Positions 27,128 through 57,971 of a DNA stretch of 64,000 nt are shown here, one piece after another (the first letter of the stretch is position 1; each line of letters begins with the position of its first letter). Position numbers and translations under genes: made by a program. The stretch covers positions 95,073 through 159,072 of the IMG/VR virus record IMGVR_UViG_3300047510_002187, one strand, 5' to 3'. A model generated the notes under the pieces. That model saw nothing but the letters and a program-made list of their open reading frames with translations, searched no databases and had not been told where the DNA came from. This stretch comes from a virus.

Positions 27128-27775
27128 ATGAAATTAATCACAGAAGAAATAGAACAGGTTAAAGTTATTAAAGAAGGTAAGGGTGATTCCCAAAGACTTT
27201 ATATTACAGGACCTTTTTTACAATCGGAATGTGTGAATAGAAATGGAAGAATGTATCCATTTTCAATTATGGAAAAGGAAGTGAGACGTTATAATGAAAA
27301 TTATATTCAAAAAGGTCGTGCTCTTGGAGAACTTGGACACCCAGAAGGTCCCACAGTAAATCTTGATAGAGTTTCTCATAAAATTGTTTCTCTTACATGT
27401 GAGGGAAATAATTGGATTGGAAAGGCGCAAATTCTTTCTACCCCAATGGGAAAAATTGCAGAATCACTTCTCAATGATGGCGTTACCCTTGGTGTTTCTT
27501 CGCGTGGAATTGGTTCTCTTAGAGAAAATAATAAAGGTTATAAAGAAGTTGGTGAAGATTTCATGCTTGCTACTGCTGCAGATATTGTAGCAGATCCTTC
27601 TGCACCTGATGCCTTTGTTCAAGGAATTATGGAAGGTGTTGAATGGATTTATGATGCATCTAGAAATTCTTGGTTAATAGAAAAAACTAGAACAAAAATA
27701 AATCGTTTAGTTGAAACAAGACAGTATCAAGAGAAAAAACTTGAACTATTTGATGAGTTTTTAAACTCATTGTAA
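27128..27775 (+). CDS. 21: Prohead core protease gp21
   Basis: 215 residues (T4 gp21 is 212). The serine protease triad of this herpesvirus-assemblin-like fold is visible: His in ELGHPEG (H71), Ser in TLGVSSRG (124/125), and Asp in AADIVADPSAPDAFV (153/156). gp21 cleaves scaffold and capsid proteins after L/I-x-E sites during head maturation. A WLIE site near residue 185 could serve self-cleavage. The gene is followed by gp22 and gp23, its main substrates. Confidence 0.95.
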   Translation: MKLITEEIEQVKVIKEGKGDSQRLYITGPFLQSECVNRNGRMYPFSIMEKEVRRYNENYIQKGRALGELGHPEGPTVNLDRVSHKIVSLTCEGNNWIGKAQILSTPMGKIAESLLNDGVTLGVSSRGIGSLRENNKGYKEVGEDFMLATAADIVADPSAPDAFVQGIMEGVEWIYDASRNSWLIEKTRTKINRLVETRQYQEKKLELFDEFLNSL

Positions 27776-27833: not shown

Positions 27834-29036
27834 ATGTCTCGTGGCAAAAATCTACAGGAAATGGAAGTAGGCACTAAGCAATCCAGAACTGCTGTGAATG
27901 CAAACGCTAAAGCAGCAGATCCTATGCAAAAATTGACTACGGGTATTCCCGATGGTCAATCTACTAGTTGGATAGATTTGGGTGGACCTACACCACAAAA
28001 TTACAAACCAGACGATGGTTCTGCAGAACTAAAGGATGCAGGATCTCCCCTTAAGCAAGTCAAGGATATTGTAAATAAGGGCGCAAAAGGTTCCGATCCT
28101 ATGAAAGGAATTAAAAAGTCTGATGCCGTAAAGGAAGAAGAAGAACTAGAAGATGAAGATTATATTGAAGAAGATATGGAAGATGAAGATGAAGATGTGA
28201 TTACCGAAGAAGAAGATGATGAAGAAGATGATGAAGAAGGAGATGAAGAAGGAAAAGGTGATTCTAAGAAAAAGAAAAAGGAAGAAGAAGATGATGATAT
28301 GAAGGAAGAGTTTGACATTGATGAAGATGTCAATGCCCTTCTTGAAGGTGAGGAACTCTCCGAAGAATTCCAAGAAAAAGCAAGACTGATTTTTGAATCA
28401 GCACTTCGCACAAAAGTTAATGAAATCCGCGAGTCTCTTGAAGTTGAATACGAGAATCGTCTTGTAGAACAAGTTCAAGAAATCGCAGGAGAACTAGAAG
28501 AGCGTGTAGACGCATATCTAGAATATGTTGCCGATGAATGGATGAACGAAAACGTTCTTGCCGTTCAAAACGGACTCAAGGAAGAACTCACTGAGTCATT
28601 CCTTGGTGGTCTCAAGCAACTTTTTGAAGAGCATTATGTAGAATTACCTGAAGAAAAATATGATGTACTTGAGAGTATGGCAGAAAAACTTGATGATATG
28701 GAGACTAAACTCAACGAGCAAATTGAAAAGAACATTCATTTAAACAAGCGTTTATCTGAATCTGTTGCAGACAGAATCTTTGATGAAATTTCTGAAGGTC
28801 TAGCTACCACACAGAAAGAAAAGCTCGCTTCACTTGCTGAAAGTGTTGAGTTTGAAAGTGATGCACAATATCGTGAAAAACTGGAGACTTTGAGGGAATC
28901 ATATTTCCCATCAAGAGTAGTTGCTCCATTAGCAACATCTGAAACACTATCTGAAGGTGTAGACGTTTCACCTGAGTTCCACTCAGATTCAATGAACGCT
29001 TATCTCAGAACTCTTTCAGCAGTTGCAAACCGCTGA
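27834..29036 (+). CDS. 22: Prohead scaffold protein gp22
   Basis: 400 residues (T4 gp22 is 269). An extreme Asp/Glu tract at residues about 102-165 (bases 28135-28330) precedes a long helical region with ALLEGEELSEEFQEKARLIFESAL, the mark of gp22-type cores in cyanophages, and coiled-coil segments to about residue 345. The protein fills the prohead, shapes it and is then cut into small peptides by gp21. The N-terminal 60 residues are unlike T4 and look flexible. It lies between its protease and the capsid gene, as in T4. Confidence 0.93.
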   Translation: MSRGKNLQEMEVGTKQSRTAVNANAKAADPMQKLTTGIPDGQSTSWIDLGGPTPQNYKPDDGSAELKDAGSPLKQVKDIVNKGAKGSDPMKGIKKSDAVKEEEELEDEDYIEEDMEDEDEDVITEEEDDEEDDEEGDEEGKGDSKKKKKEEEDDDMKEEFDIDEDVNALLEGEELSEEFQEKARLIFESALRTKVNEIRESLEVEYENRLVEQVQEIAGELEERVDAYLEYVADEWMNENVLAVQNGLKEELTESFLGGLKQLFEEHYVELPEEKYDVLESMAEKLDDMETKLNEQIEKNIHLNKRLSESVADRIFDEISEGLATTQKEKLASLAESVEFESDAQYREKLETLRESYFPSRVVAPLATSETLSEGVDVSPEFHSDSMNAYLRTLSAVANR

Positions 29037-29090: not shown

Positions 29091-30542
29091 ATGTTTCAAT
29101 CCGAAAGATTGCAAGAAAAGTGGGCACCGCTTCTTGACTTTGATGGATTAGATCCTATCAAAGATTCGCACAGAAGAGCTGTAACCGCTGTCTTGCTCGA
29201 AAACCAAGAAAGATTTTTAAGAGAACAGAATTCATTCTCTCATGGTGAGTTCTTGACAGAAACCCCATCCATGAGCACTGCTTCTGGCACTTCTGCTGGA
29301 TTTAGTGGTTATGCCGCATCTGAAGGCCCAGTTGCAGGTTTTGACCCCGTTCTCATTAGTCTCATTCGTCGTTCAATGCCTAACTTGGTCGCTTATGACC
29401 TCGCTGGCGTTCAACCAATGAATGGTCCTACTGGTCTTATCTTTGCTATGCGTTCACGCTATGGTAAAGTCCAAGGTCAAGGTCCAGAAAACCTATACGA
29501 CGAAGTAGATACCGCATATTCCGCACAGAATAGTCAGTTTGATTTAGATCAAGGTCAGTACACATCTGTAGATGGTGCAAGAGTTGGTTCTGGATCTACT
29601 GTAGGATTCGGTACTACAAATGCTGGTGTAAACAACAGCCCAGGTAACTTCAACGATAACCCTGGTCTCTTGAACCCAGATGGTCAACTTGCCTATACCA
29701 CTGGTCAGGGTATGAGCACTGCTGACGCAGAAGGTCTCGGTTACGGTAACTCTCAGTTCAACGAAATGAACTTCTCTATTGAGAAAGTTCTCGTTGAAGC
29801 AAAGTCCCGTGCTTTGAAAGCTGAGTACAGTCTTGAACTTGCTCAAGACCTTAAGGCAATTCATGGTCTTAATGCTGAAGCAGAACTCGCTAACATTTTG
29901 TCTAGCGAAATTCTTGCTGAAATTAACCGTGAAGTTATCCGTACCATTTACAAGGTTGCACGTCCTGGTGCTCAGGCAAACGTAGCAACTGCTGGTGCAT
30001 TTGACCTTGATGTTGACTCCAACGGTCGTTGGTCTGTTGAGAAGTTCAAAGGTCTCCTTTTCCAAATTGAGCGTGACGCTAACGCTATTGCGCAGCAAAC
30101 ACGTAGAGGAAAGGGTAATGTTATCATGTGCTCTGCTGACGTTGCTTCTGCTCTAAGCATGGCTGGTGTACTTGATTACACTCCTGCTCTTAATGCAAAT
30201 CTCAACGTTGATGACACTGGTAACACCTTTGCTGGTGTTCTTCTCGGTAAGTTCCGTGTCTATATTGACCCATATGCTGCAAACGTAAGTTCTAACCAGT
30301 ATTACGTTGTTGGTTATAAGGGTTCTTCTCCTTATGACGCTGGACTCTTCTATTGTCCTTATGTTCCTCTCCAAATGGTTCGTGCCGTTGGTGAGAACAG
30401 CTTCCAACCAAAAATTGGATTCAAGACTCGTTACGGTCTTGTTGCTAACCCATTTGCGGAAGGTCGTACACAAGGTATGGGTGCTATTAATCCTAATAGC
30501 AACGTATACTATAGAAGAGTACAAGTTCGCAACCTTATGTGA
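29091..30542 (+). CDS. 23: Major capsid protein gp23
   Basis: 483 residues (T4 gp23 is 521), HK97-type fold. The N-terminus FQSERLQEKWAPLLDFDGLDPIKD and VLLENQERFL form the scaffold-directed delta domain. Cleavage by gp21 is expected after FLTE near residue 57, giving a mature start TPSMSTASGTSAGFS. Later signatures are LISLIRRSMPNLVAYDLAGVQPM, then VIMCSADVASALSMAG and IDPYAANV. Codon use is richer in C-ending codons than in neighbours, as expected for the most expressed gene. A ribosome site AGAGGT lies 10 bases upstream, and a UUCG terminator follows. Confidence 0.97.
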   Translation: MFQSERLQEKWAPLLDFDGLDPIKDSHRRAVTAVLLENQERFLREQNSFSHGEFLTETPSMSTASGTSAGFSGYAASEGPVAGFDPVLISLIRRSMPNLVAYDLAGVQPMNGPTGLIFAMRSRYGKVQGQGPENLYDEVDTAYSAQNSQFDLDQGQYTSVDGARVGSGSTVGFGTTNAGVNNSPGNFNDNPGLLNPDGQLAYTTGQGMSTADAEGLGYGNSQFNEMNFSIEKVLVEAKSRALKAEYSLELAQDLKAIHGLNAEAELANILSSEILAEINREVIRTIYKVARPGAQANVATAGAFDLDVDSNGRWSVEKFKGLLFQIERDANAIAQQTRRGKGNVIMCSADVASALSMAGVLDYTPALNANLNVDDTGNTFAGVLLGKFRVYIDPYAANVSSNQYYVVGYKGSSPYDAGLFYCPYVPLQMVRAVGENSFQPKIGFKTRYGLVANPFAEGRTQGMGAINPNSNVYYRRVQVRNLM

Positions 30543-55007: not shown

Positions 55008-55871
55008 ATGGCACTTTGGGGAATCGCAGATAGTCTTTATTCTACAGGAACTGTAGAAGTAAATTATGAAACTAAAGAAATAATTGGATCTGCAACTTCA
55101 TTCACTGCATCGGGTATTTCTACTGGCGATGTAATAACAATAGGAGTTGGTGGAACTTTTGGGTCTGCTGTAATTTCTGGAATTACTTCAGACCGTTTAA
55201 TTGCTATTGCTACCACACAATACTTAACTGGTGCAGTAATTTCTGGTGTCGCATATACAATATCAGAAAAACCAATTTACACATTAGAAGATTCAAATTA
55301 TTCTTCTAATGTTGTTGGAATAACAACCACAATTCCTAAGCATGATGTTTATGGTGTGGATAAGTATGAAATTGGTCTTTTGTCCCCAGGAGCATCCGGA
55401 ATTGCCACACAGTATGGTGGTATTCATGCTGGTTGGGTTGGAATCCACACTTATATTGATATGCACGGCAATTTGAGAGTTAAATCAGAAACTCTTGTTG
55501 CAATGTCAGAAATTTCTAGCGGAACCGTTGCTTCTTACATTTCTTCTGGCGATGCTTCTGATGATGTAGTTTTTGCTGATGCAGTCATCACCATTACGAC
55601 AGACCCTGAAGATGTGGTTGGAATTGCAACAGATGAAGATGCAGTATTTGCTGTTGATGTAACTGTAGTTCCTTCCTATGCACCAGTTTCTTATCAGTGG
55701 TATGAGGATGCCAATGCACTTTCTGATGCTGGAGATTATTCTGGAACTCAAACTGCAATTCTTACAGTTGCAAACGATAGTGATAAAAACGATGGAAGAG
55801 AATATACTGTTGAAATTGTTTCTGGAGATGTTTCAGTTGTTTCTGCCGCAGCAACAATTACCTACGCATGA
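55008..55871 (+). CDS. Virion surface protein with C-terminal Ig-like domain
   Basis: 287 residues. Residues 10-95 are a beta module (YSTGTVEVNYETKEIIGSATSF, then SGISTGDVITIG) known to me from cyanophage structural proteins. Residues 95-165 are glycine-rich with HAGWVGIHTYIDMHGNLRVKSETLVAMS. Residues about 195-287 form an Ig-like domain with a core VSYQWYEDANALSDAGDYSGTQTAILTV and closing strands. Ig-like domains in phages decorate heads or tails (T4 Hoc is one) and bind surfaces weakly. A late octamer precedes it. Head decoration is the best guess. Confidence 0.8.
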   Translation: MALWGIADSLYSTGTVEVNYETKEIIGSATSFTASGISTGDVITIGVGGTFGSAVISGITSDRLIAIATTQYLTGAVISGVAYTISEKPIYTLEDSNYSSNVVGITTTIPKHDVYGVDKYEIGLLSPGASGIATQYGGIHAGWVGIHTYIDMHGNLRVKSETLVAMSEISSGTVASYISSGDASDDVVFADAVITITTDPEDVVGIATDEDAVFAVDVTVVPSYAPVSYQWYEDANALSDAGDYSGTQTAILTVANDSDKNDGREYTVEIVSGDVSVVSAAATITYA

Positions 55872-55881
55872 TAATTAATAT

Positions 55882-56268
55882 ATGATTTTTAATGAATTGA
55901 ATGAGGATAATTTTTTATTATTTGCAATAAAAAATTACGAGAATCCTCAAGCAGTAACCAAAGATGATTTTCAAAAAGATTTAAATCATTTTAAATATAT
56001 TAAGAGGTTACTGAAAAAATATAAAAAAACGGGAATCTTAAAAACCCACTTACTGATAAATCATTTTATTGTTCTTTATAATATATTTGGTGAGGCCACA
56101 ACTCCTATGTTATTTTTCAAAATTGAAAAAGAGATGTGGTCTCAGGTAAAAACTATTATATTATTTCTGAATCGCCTTCCAGAGTTCCCTAAGACTTATA
56201 TTCACGATATACTTGTTGATATAACTTGTTTGGAACAACTTCAAAAAATCTATGACAAAAATGGATAA
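55882..56268 (+). CDS. Helical hypothetical protein
   Basis: 128 residues. FLLFAIKNYENPQAVTKDDFQKDLNHFKYIKRLLKKY, then LKTHLLINHFIVLYNIFGEATTPMLFFKIEKEMWSQVKTIILFLNRLP. All-alpha; the hydrophobic parts look like buried helices, not membrane spans. I recall homologues next to replication genes in cyanophages without a function. The last 17 bases overlap the next gene. Confidence 0.75.
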   Translation: MIFNELNEDNFLLFAIKNYENPQAVTKDDFQKDLNHFKYIKRLLKKYKKTGILKTHLLINHFIVLYNIFGEATTPMLFFKIEKEMWSQVKTIILFLNRLPEFPKTYIHDILVDITCLEQLQKIYDKNG

Positions 56269-56500
56269 AACTGATATAATAGTAAGACATTTTAGGAATC
56301 TTAGAGAAGAAGGTGGACCATCTATGAATACCGGAACACCTAATGGATCTGCAGGATTTAGTGCTTATGCAGATTCTCGTGGACCTAATGCAGGTACATC
56401 TAATCCTCTTCCATTTTTCAAAAAAAAGAATGGTAAATTAGATGGAAGAAGTGTAAACAAAAGATACAAAGATTGGGTGAAATCTTTGGGTATGATGTGA
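56252..56500 (+). CDS. Small protein mimicking the major capsid N-terminal region
   Basis: 82 residues; ATG 56261 is a possible later start. Residues about 18-50 (LRE, then GGPSMNTGTPNGSAGFSAYA and DSRGPNAG) closely match gp23 just after its predicted protease site (LTE, then TPSMSTASGTSAGFSGYA and ASEGPVAG): PSM-x-T, SAGFS-x-YA-x-S-x-GP-x-AG are shared. Both have L-x-E, the gp21 cleavage pattern, directly before. The tail is basic (PFFKKKNGKLDGRSVNKRYKDW). A function in head assembly as a protease substrate or capsid-interior peptide is inferred. Confidence 0.75.
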   Translation: MTKMDKTDIIVRHFRNLREEGGPSMNTGTPNGSAGFSAYADSRGPNAGTSNPLPFFKKKNGKLDGRSVNKRYKDWVKSLGMM

Positions 56501-56503
56501 GTT

Positions 56504-56511
56504 ATAAATAA
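56504..56511 (+). promoter_or_regulatory. Late promoter octamer TATAAATA before 56581
   Basis: An exact TATAAATA, with further AAATAAATA repeats behind it, 69 bases before the coiled-coil membrane protein. Confidence 0.45.
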
Positions 56512-56580
56512 ATAAATATATTAGACTGTTTAAATGCTTAGGTGAGTTATAGGATAAAAACTTACCTAAGGGCATGGGAT

Positions 56581-56970
56581 ATGTCAGAAGAATCTGTAAA
56601 GGTCGCTATTTTGGAGCAAAGACTTGTTGACTTGAAAGATGTTGTTGTCAAAATAGATAATGCAATAGAAAAGTTAAGCGAGGTAAATATTAGCGTAGGA
56701 AAAATACTCGCGGTACATGAGCAAAAAATCCAAAAGCAAGAAAATGCGGACGAAGTATTATTTGCAAAGATTGACAAACTCCGTGATAAAATGGACAGCG
56801 ATCATAACGCAGTTTTGCTTAGAATTCAAGAAATAGAAAAGAAGATGTGGATTGGTATGGGAATTATTATTGCTTTAACCGTAATAATCAACAATCCAAA
56901 TAATATATTTGGCGACATCTTGACACCCGACCCGACTCCTGTTATAATCCAGGAGAATCCGAAACCCTGA
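56581..56970 (+). CDS. Coiled-coil protein with C-terminal membrane helix (XhlA-like layout)
   Basis: 129 residues from ATG 56581; the GTG at 56542 would add 13 residues without support. Residues 1-85 are a continuous heptad-rich helix (ILEQRLVDLKDVVVKIDNAIEKL and onward). Residues about 90-108 (MWIGMGIIIALTVIINN) form one membrane span, and a Pro-rich tail follows. The layout resembles XhlA-type phage proteins that work with holins, so a lysis role is possible but not shown. The primase promoter lies inside its last codons. Confidence 0.7.
   Translation: MSEESVKVAILEQRLVDLKDVVVKIDNAIEKLSEVNISVGKILAVHEQKIQKQENADEVLFAKIDKLRDKMDSDHNAVLLRIQEIEKKMWIGMGIIIALTVIINNPNNIFGDILTPDPTPVIIQENPKP
56920..56948 (+). 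promoter_or_regulatory. Perfect-consensus sigma70 promoter for the primase group
   Basis: TTGACA (56920-56925), 17 bases, TATAAT (56943-56948): 12 of 12 consensus positions with ideal spacing, inside the end of the preceding gene and about 18 bases before the primase ATG when the start point is allowed for. Confidence 0.92.
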
Positions 56971-56972
56971 TC

Positions 56973-57971
56973 ATGAATTTGATTGATGATAAGTTTATCA
57001 ATCTATTGTCAACACGTCTAGAAAAATTTAAAAAAGTTAAACCCGGACTTTATAATTGTAGATGTCCCATTTGTGGGGACTCTAAGAAGAATAAATCTAA
57101 GGCAAGGGGATACTTTTATTCCATAAAAAGTAACACGAACTATAAGTGTCACAATTGTGGCGCAAACTTGTCTTTTAATAATTTTCTCAAAAAGATAGAT
57201 CCAATTCTACATAAGCAGTTTTGTTTGGAGAAATTTAAGTCTGGTTTTACTGGGAAAAATTTTGTTGTAGAAGAACCCAAGTTTAACTTTGATAAACCAA
57301 AATTTAGTAAAAAATTAGATTTACCAAAAGCATCAGAAAATCTAATTGCCAAAGAGTATTTGGAAGGTAGAAAATTAAACTCAGATAAATTCTATTATAC
57401 TGAAAAATTTAAACTATGGGTTAACTCAATTAAACAAACTTTTGAGAATGTTAAATATGATGAACCTAGGATAATAATACCACTTTTCTACAATAAAGAA
57501 CTTATCGGGTTTCAGGGAAGATCATTAAAAACAAATCCATTAGTTAAATACATCACCATCATGTTAGATGAAGATGCGCCGAAGATCTATGGTCTTGATA
57601 ATATACAAAAAGACAAGACAGTTTACATTACCGAGGGACCATTTGATTCGGAGTTTATTTCTAACTGCATTGCTCTTTGTGGAGCAGATGGTAATGTGGA
57701 AGAACTTAATATTGGAGATAGGGTTTGGATTTATGATAATGAACCCAGAAATCTAGAGATTATTTCTAGAATTGAAAAGTGTATTGATCGTGGGGAAAAG
57801 GTTGTGATTTGGCCTTCTTCAATTGACAAGAAGGATATTAATCAAATGTACATTGCTGGACTTAATGTTCAGGATGTGGTAGAATCCAATACCTATTTCG
57901 GGTTGGAAGCAAAACTCAAATTTACTAATTGGAAAAAATATGAGCAACGGAACGAAAGTAAAAAAGCGTGA
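56973..57971 (+). CDS. 61: DNA primase gp61
   Basis: 332 residues (T4 gp61 is 342). Zinc-binding domain with C31-x-x-C34 and C59-x-x-C62 (CPICGD and CHNCGA). TOPRIM domain with VYITEGPFDSEFI and RVWIYDNEPRN. It makes RNA primers on the lagging strand with helicase gp41. The last 32 bases overlap nrdA in another frame. Confidence 0.93.
   Translation: MNLIDDKFINLLSTRLEKFKKVKPGLYNCRCPICGDSKKNKSKARGYFYSIKSNTNYKCHNCGANLSFNNFLKKIDPILHKQFCLEKFKSGFTGKNFVVEEPKFNFDKPKFSKKLDLPKASENLIAKEYLEGRKLNSDKFYYTEKFKLWVNSIKQTFENVKYDEPRIIIPLFYNKELIGFQGRSLKTNPLVKYITIMLDEDAPKIYGLDNIQKDKTVYITEGPFDSEFISNCIALCGADGNVEELNIGDRVWIYDNEPRNLEIISRIEKCIDRGEKVVIWPSSIDKKDINQMYIAGLNVQDVVESNTYFGLEAKLKFTNWKKYEQRNESKKA

Follow-up and report, generated by a model that had tools for sequence, protein, structure and literature searches.

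A small gene in the 64,000-nucleotide stretch analysed here (hereafter the window; positions 95,073 to 159,072 of the virus record IMGVR_UViG_3300047510_002187) encodes a protein that carries a copy of the N-terminal arm of the mature major capsid protein (gp23*). The 82-residue open reading frame (ORF) that an initial annotation of the window had pointed out at 56252-56500 is present, and we propose that its product belongs to the minor head proteins, docking onto the gp23* lattice through this copied arm, the N-fist module, and bearing a basic tail. We give this proposal an even chance of being right. Shell-stitching arms have been known as segments of capsid proteins, and here such an arm stands on a gene of its own.

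The copied segment and its counterpart in gp23

Residues 23-48 of the small protein (PSMNTGTPNGSAGFSAYADSRGPNAG) and residues 59-83 of the gp23 encoded in the same window (PSMSTASGTSAGFSGYAASEGPVAG) were identical at 15 of the 25 aligned residues, with one gap. The local alignment score was 67, against 21.2 ± 4.5 (maximum 54) for 1,000 shuffles of the small protein (z = 10). By this test, the likeness to the mature gp23 N-terminus claimed in the initial annotation is genuine and well beyond what chance would give; the text match holds as it was written, and its extent had to be corrected from residues 18-50 to residues 23-48. Both segments are indeed preceded by an L-x-E tripeptide, LRE at residues 17-19 of the small protein and LTE in gp23. 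The arm pattern fitted two of the 339 window ORFs of at least 35 residues, namely gp23 and the small ORF, and it was found in no other window ORF, gp22 and gp21 included. Chance likeness due to a composition rich in G, A and S was ruled out by shuffle tests on the window protein and on 825 shuffled ORFs from the same position in relatives (see below). A second gp23-like gene or a gp24 gene was also considered as the source of the arm and discarded, as the 224.5-kb record, which may be incomplete, contains one PF07068 match only.

By alignment to T4 gp23, residues 58-83 of the window gp23, which start at the gp21 cut, correspond to T4 residues ~66-90. Judged by this alignment position, the copied segment is the gp23* N-fist, with which T4 gp23* clamps neighbouring capsomers, and the small protein has the sequence features of that module, a G-F..GP.AG core after a gp21-type site. 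According to a review and a structure paper on T4, gp23 loses 65 residues at maturation and N-fists form in the case of this protein (PMC9958956), the N-fist being an unusual 25-residue N-terminal element that contacts four subunits, two of them in an adjacent capsomer (PMC9958956; PMC7136217). The N-terminal regions of T4 gp23 are described there as disordered inside the prohead and as shifting to the outer surface on expansion (PMC9958956).

The window protein is not a T4-like major capsid protein: it has no PF07068 body, and only the arm aligns. Neither a Pfam search nor a sequence search of solved structures returned a match for it. Among the PHROG profiles, PHROG 3286 (unknown) matched residues 5-76 with an E value of 9.3e-7, and PHROG 696, named "major head protein", matched with an E value of 0.013. 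In an AlphaFold model, residues 6-16 are predicted to form a helix, with low to moderate confidence. Several close relatives start at the codon matching M4, so translation probably begins there.

The arm among T4-like cyanophages

The gene order DUF7207, small gene, DUF7201, gp61 and nrdA is fixed in T4-like cyanophages, and the small gene of the window sits at the same position between DUF7207 and DUF7201 (hereafter the slot). We examined the slots of named phages and of IMG/VR contigs, the latter retrieved through the neighbour gene DUF7207 and not through the slot protein. Four neighbour-gene scans gave 271 loci: 250 yielded a slot ORF by rule (165 distinct), and the 21 that did not were excluded. 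Because the contigs represent the closest relatives of four query phages, these numbers should not be read as a census; the distinct counts are safer, since at least seven contigs were included twice.

A profile for which 40 gp23 arms (the window's among them) were the sole input matched 123 of the 165 distinct slot ORFs (200 of the 250 loci) at E ≤ 0.01, and none of the 825 shuffled slot ORFs. This profile is not circular, unlike the samples picked by pattern that are used below. The slot ORF L015, identical to the window protein and standing in for it, was matched with an E value of 3.4e-4. The alignment of the short slot family with gp23 N-termini (hhalign) gave 97.7% (E 1.9e-12), and the similarity persisted at 97.6% after removal of the window's own gp23; the long family gave 97.4% and the type B forms 39%, and the reversed-gp23 control gave 6.7% (short) and 0.2% (long). 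When whole gp23 was used as query, the slot gene was recovered as the second or the only match in 8/22, 2/14 and 1/2 records, with E values from 1.4e-6 to 1.6e-4. In a search of 35 records with an arm profile (22 arms, some of them from the same genomes), every match lay in gp23 or the slot gene, except for one small protein in the contig G015; the HTVC008M record gave no match to this profile. Slot arms and gp23 arms have in common a G..GPxAG core, mostly with [FY]-D-P behind it, in alignments of 28 of the 62 distinct short and 25 of the 54 distinct long forms, all chosen by pattern and therefore partly circular.

The exception in G015 is a 73-residue protein on the minus strand (L373:1169-1390), away from the slot, which starts with MKTFKQFISE; the genes flanking it, recognised by eye, are presumably psbD and psbA. 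The slot arm of G015 is itself weak. A pattern search of S-SCSM1 revealed no other arm carriers, and a hit at 213996, in a 422-residue frame, looks unrelated.

Slot proteins occur in several builds; the counts of types among the 250 loci rest on text patterns and are partly circular. The short forms consist of a helix that mostly ends in L/I-x-E, the arm, and a basic tail often with R/K-x-W. In the long forms (160-215 residues), the arm lies at or near the N-terminus and is followed by a basic stretch, a domain with the pattern LFQYKV..P.VGET..Y..SPAEL and a long helix. Searched by tblastn, the long-form protein of Syn19 was found at 310 places in 288 phage records; the S-SSM4 (NC_020875.1) and S-RIM14 records have two places each. 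Big forms of 421 and 304 residues were found in G052 and L293, respectively, with an internal arm placed after VHE (before D) or LKE (before E) and followed by a domain that, judged by eye, seems related; the relative of the L293 protein in G051 is truncated by the contig end. For the long form, a search against PDB gave no match at E ≤ 0.001 (best 0.91), and a search against a viral library gave three, of which two carry names of cyanophage proteins. In a long form such as L140:1860-2414, an alpha/beta domain is predicted at ~64-107 and a long helix at 109-176.

The type B forms, 37 of the 250 loci by text pattern, have the same helix and tail with another middle (PTNNVGxGKIAGTVEAGDDPPV). The short arm form and type B are alignable over 65 columns, tail included, at 98.7% (hhalign), and therefore look like one family with a swapped middle. 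In 6 of 15 records searched, the type B middle was matched once each; the match lay in the slot, except in P-SSM2, where it lay one gene beyond. That this middle mimics another protein was considered and rejected, as the 15 records gave no match to it away from the slot and its neighbour. Further middles occur in some slot proteins. The slots L283-L290 have MNYNEEVAANSVG or a similar sequence near the start and no arm beyond; in the four of these genomes having gp23, the residues after E resemble post-cut gp23 (SEVAANSTG/SEVAVNSTG). The arm motif, which the initial annotation expected homologues in other phages to share, is thus not universal, because 37 of the 250 loci are type B and some others carry other middles, and it is nevertheless found by the gp23-arm profile in 123 of the 165 distinct ORFs.

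Correspondence between the arm and the gp23 of the same phage

Slot protein and gp23 could be paired in 41 genomes. Arm-bearing pairs were picked by the arm pattern, a choice that is partly circular; P-SSM2, first flagged by the pattern, is type B and was removed, leaving 25. In these, the shuffle test of the slot protein against its own gp23 gave p = 0.001 (the floor) in 24 genomes and 0.003 in one, while in the other 16 genomes z ranged from −1.7 to 4.6.

After the near-duplicate pair L140 was dropped, the mean own score of the 24 non-redundant pairs, centred by row and column, was 13.4 against a null standard deviation of 1.8 (p = 5e-5, the test floor). Separated by form, the p value was 5e-5 for the 18 short pairs and 0.025 for the six long ones. 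With the addition of S-CREM2, G052 and G051, whose sequences had already been seen before the test, and with the slot sequence of G051 taken from its near-identical relative L293, the 27 pairs gave p = 1e-5 (floor) and a median own rank of 3 out of 27; the three newcomers ranked their own gp23 1, 1 and 3. Examples of paired arms (slot/gp23) are QTTGYTGADAATGPTAGYDPV/QTTGYTTGDTATGPVAGFDPV in P-SSM4, GFTGAAAPEGPVAGYDP/GFTGAAAPGGPNAGFDP in S-CREM2 and GFGGSAQGFDPGPTAGFDP/GFGGSAQGFSAGPTAGFDP in the contig G006. Co-variation of the slot protein with the gp23 of the same phage, on which the initial annotation had made its idea depend, is therefore observed, with S-SM1, AG-345-O18, Syn19 and G015 as exceptions and with only a modest excess over phylogeny.

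Where residues were identical, the codon was also the same in 40.1% of own comparisons and in 40.0% of cross comparisons. As own and cross codon sharing are equal, the likeness appears to be kept or regained at the protein level; recent gene conversion, which was also considered, has left no trace in the DNA by this measure and was rejected.

Slot proteins in virions and the candidate cleavage site

In S-CREM2, ORF160 (128342-129235) is listed in the published mass-spectrometry table of virion proteins (PMC10665884). This ORF is the slot protein and carries the arm (...IKEEMMAAGATGFTGAAAPEGPVAGYDPLMGK...). In the S-SCSM1 record, 48 coding sequences bear the tag "virion protein", and the slot protein SSCSM1_97 is among them. 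The tags cover ORF91, 213 and 214, which the S-SCSM1 paper names as detected (PMC9602691), and leave out several genes whose names mark them as structural, among them one for a baseplate wedge, hub genes and the gene for the short tail fibre, and we infer that the tag stands for detection in the particle. The presence of the slot protein in the virion is hence supported in relatives, by a published table in S-CREM2 and by tag in S-SCSM1, and so is the suggestion of the initial annotation that a mimic of the capsid segment belongs to the head.

Within their N-terminal 45 residues, 50 of the 62 distinct short forms and 29 of the 32 type B forms had a match to [LI]xE, counts that have no chance control. 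The first residues behind L-x-E are shared between slot protein and gp23 in the window (PSM/PSM), in DSL-LC02 (GPTM/GPTM) and in G051 (APTM/APTM). Among the distinct long forms, 19 of 54 have the arm at their very start, lack E in the first 12 residues and have no in-frame ATG, GTG or TTG upstream; the mature arm, and not the cut, is therefore the common feature of the arm-bearing forms. Accordingly, a role as maturation substrate, one of those suggested by the initial annotation, fits the short forms and is not general. The S-SCSM1 slot gene (93082-93306; L001:4010-4234) was dropped as a case of an arm without propeptide, since its deposited start is probably too late and an in-frame ATG upstream adds MDKTDRVIQLIRE.

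Proposed mechanism and alternative explanations

The minor head protein that we propose could work as follows. The N-terminal helix ending in L-x-E probably carries the short forms into the prohead, where gp21 probably removes it after L-x-E, as it does with the gp23 propeptide, and the cut short form would be left with almost the same N-terminus as gp23*. On shell expansion, the freed arm would dock between neighbouring gp23* subunits, in the N-fist pocket between capsomers; since the freed segment has the N-fist sequence, it could dock where the gp23* N-fist can. This would probably happen at sites lacking a gp23 arm, such as the portal vertex or defects, or else by competing with that arm, and the K/R-rich tail may then contact the DNA or the inner shell. 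In the long forms, the same attachment would hold the small alpha/beta domain and the long helix to the shell. Type B pairs the helix and the tail with another middle, so that the arm resembles an exchangeable address.

A more specific version is a detachable clamp: an N-fist encoded on a separate gene would serve as a plug-in address and tether a basic, DNA-facing tail, or in the long forms a folded domain, to gp23-free pockets of the expanded gp23* lattice, for instance round the portal. Such an address would vary with the phage's own shell, and therefore the part would be virus-specific. We regard this version as possible and rather doubtful.

Several observations weigh against docking. Its logic is borrowed from T4, whose N-fist has a different sequence from the cyanophage one, so that the T4 picture is carried over by analogy. 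Two structure models, with predicted local distance difference test scores (pLDDT) of 64.5 and 70.3, give the arm low confidence and no secondary structure. Slot proteins without the arm exist, as in phiN3 and HTVC008M, and the arm is therefore dispensable for the family; among seven genomes with such armless slots, the type B middle was matched once in six and not at all in G036. A match to [LI]xE in the first 45 residues was found in only 4 of the 54 long forms, again with no chance control.

As to virions, the 48 tags of S-SCSM1 do not match the 45 phage proteins given for its virions in the paper (PMC9602691), and the S-SM1 record labels the slot protein "hypothetical" despite a studied virion proteome of 41 proteins (PMC3037559). 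As to own-gp23 matching, the rank out of 27 was poor in AG-345-O18 (last), S-SM1 (26th; L192 has the same sequences), G015 (18th) and Syn19 (17th). Slot similarity tracks the similarity of the gp23 bodies (r = 0.59). The own gp23 was better than that of the nearest relative in 18 of 27 cases (p = 0.0099), a modest excess over phylogeny, and the partial Mantel test gave r = 0.125 (p = 0.0496), a small excess after phylogeny. Much of the own-gp23 matching is due to phylogeny, plus a modest excess.

The strongest rival is an internal head protein in the style of T4, whose helix would be cut by gp21 and whose basic peptide would be packed with the DNA and ejected, the arm acting as a linker, a solubility element or an exit element that binds no N-fist site. 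We consider this unlikely, on the following balance. The slot proteins that are short, basic and provided with L-x-E, and that differ between phages, would suit it, as would the type B forms, which have the same helix and tail without the arm. Near the start of some relatives stands MKTFLQFQE, MKTYKELKE or MKTFKQFISE, which we take to be close to the capsid-targeting sequences of T4. What this explanation leaves unaccounted for are the ~30 capsid-protein residues kept at the protein level and their fit to the own gp23, together with the long forms that have no propeptide. The T4 internal proteins are basic and have propeptides of 10-19 residues (PMC9026906).

It is improbable, in our judgement, that the small protein is a bait or brake for the protease, with the arm as the P' side recognised by gp21 and the protein timing or titrating gp23 cleavage. 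The L-x-E before both segments, and the first following residues common to them in several genomes, would be expected of such a bait; the absence of the arm pattern from every other window ORF, gp22 and gp21 among them, would not, nor would the 19 of 54 distinct long forms without any E before the arm and the retention of the arm protein in S-CREM2 virions.

A relic of a partial gp23 duplication, whose arm has no present function and whose likeness decays with phylogeny, appears slightly less probable still. The correlation of slot similarity with gp23-body similarity reported above (r = 0.59) agrees with it, and so does the absence or replacement of the arm in some lineages. Nonetheless, the protein likeness persists while codon sharing is no higher in own pairs than in cross ones, and an old paralogy would not predict enrichment of own matches.

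Finally, a regulator of assembly before maturation, occupying the path of the gp23 N-arm in the prohead, delaying expansion and then leaving, would suit the T4 N-terminal regions that move out of the prohead interior on expansion (PMC9958956), and is very improbable given the presence of the protein in purified S-CREM2 virions and, by tag, in S-SCSM1.

If the proposed docking is true, a separate virion protein built on this kind of arm would represent a new means of attaching parts to a shell, and would provide a common group of ocean viruses with a natural loading tag. A testable function would also be gained for a gene family called "major head protein" or "hypothetical" in databases, and own-genome matching makes the clamp idea testable through arm swaps.

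Features of the window

The coordinates of the small gene, of its parts and of the genes discussed are collected in Table 1. The small gene overlaps the end of the DUF7207 gene upstream, and a 784-residue ORF after gp61 occupies the nrdA position of relatives. Three overlapping ATAAATA words lie at 56504-56518, between the small gene and DUF7201; they are late-promoter-like, have no control and were not used as support.

Table 1. Features of the small gene, of its surroundings and of the head genes in the window, with examples of type B slot proteins from other loci
Feature	Position	Strand	Remarks
Small slot protein	56252..56500	+	82 aa ORF as listed; probable start ATG 56261, giving 79 aa
N-terminal helix, residues 4-19, ends L-R-E	56261..56308	+	candidate propeptide or targeting sequence for the head; gp21 may cut after E19
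gp23*-like arm, residues 23-48	56318..56395	+	aligns with N-fist
Basic tail with Y-K-D-W-V-K	56396..56497	+	9 K/R, 2 D/E
Possible head protein upstream of slot	55008..55871	+	best match phrog_3086 (unknown) 2e-35; phrog_613 "head protein" 4.4e-13
DUF7207 protein, usual upstream neighbour	55882..56268	+	PF23837 4.1e-53
DUF7201 coiled-coil protein, usual downstream neighbour	56542..56970	+	PF23831 7e-36
gp61 primase	56973..57971	+	phrog_47 1.9e-87
gp21 prohead protease	27128..27775	+	PF03420 1.9e-36
gp22 scaffold	27834..29036	+	PF25623 4.9e-78
gp23 major capsid protein	29091..30542	+	PF07068 7.6e-149
gp23 L-T-E maturation site, residues 55-57	29253..29261	+	aligned with FLTE of T4 gp23
gp23* arm copied by slot protein, residues 59-83	29265..29339	+	with residue 58, aligns with T4 ~66-90
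Type B examples	L060:1356-1547; L239:1872-2081; P-SSM2 164043-164690

Comparison with known systems

The initial annotation knew of no description of such a capsid mimic. In agreement with this, we found no published capsid-arm copy on a separate gene in literature that was searched by title and abstract start and was mostly open-access. The resemblance has, on the other hand, been registered without explanation in the name "major head protein", given to PHROG 696 and, in RefSeq, to the slot protein of S-SCSM1, S-RIM8, P-SSM4 and Syn19. This name suggests a capsid subunit, whereas the window protein has only the arm.

The closest known element is the N-fist or N-arm of gp23* in T4-like phages (T4 residues 66-91), with which the copied segment aligns and which has its counterpart of the upstream L-x-E in most short forms. 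Here, however, the module is found in a separate small gene 27 kb away, where a basic tail takes the place of the HK97-fold capsid body. The T4 internal proteins IPI-IPIII, with their capsid targeting sequences, are likewise small and basic, and a relative of the slot protein, that of S-CREM2, is virion-borne; IPI-IPIII also have an N-terminal peptide ending in a gp21-type site, for which most short slot forms have a candidate. The difference is that no capsid-protein segment is described in them in the available part of their account (PMC9026906), and that some slot members have no propeptide. The T4 vertex protein gp24 is, like the slot gene, a second gene with gp23-like sequence in the same shell, but it is a full-length relative of gp23, and the record of the window has gp23 as its single PF07068 match. 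The slot protein, in short, resembles the internal head proteins but bears a module of the capsid protein.
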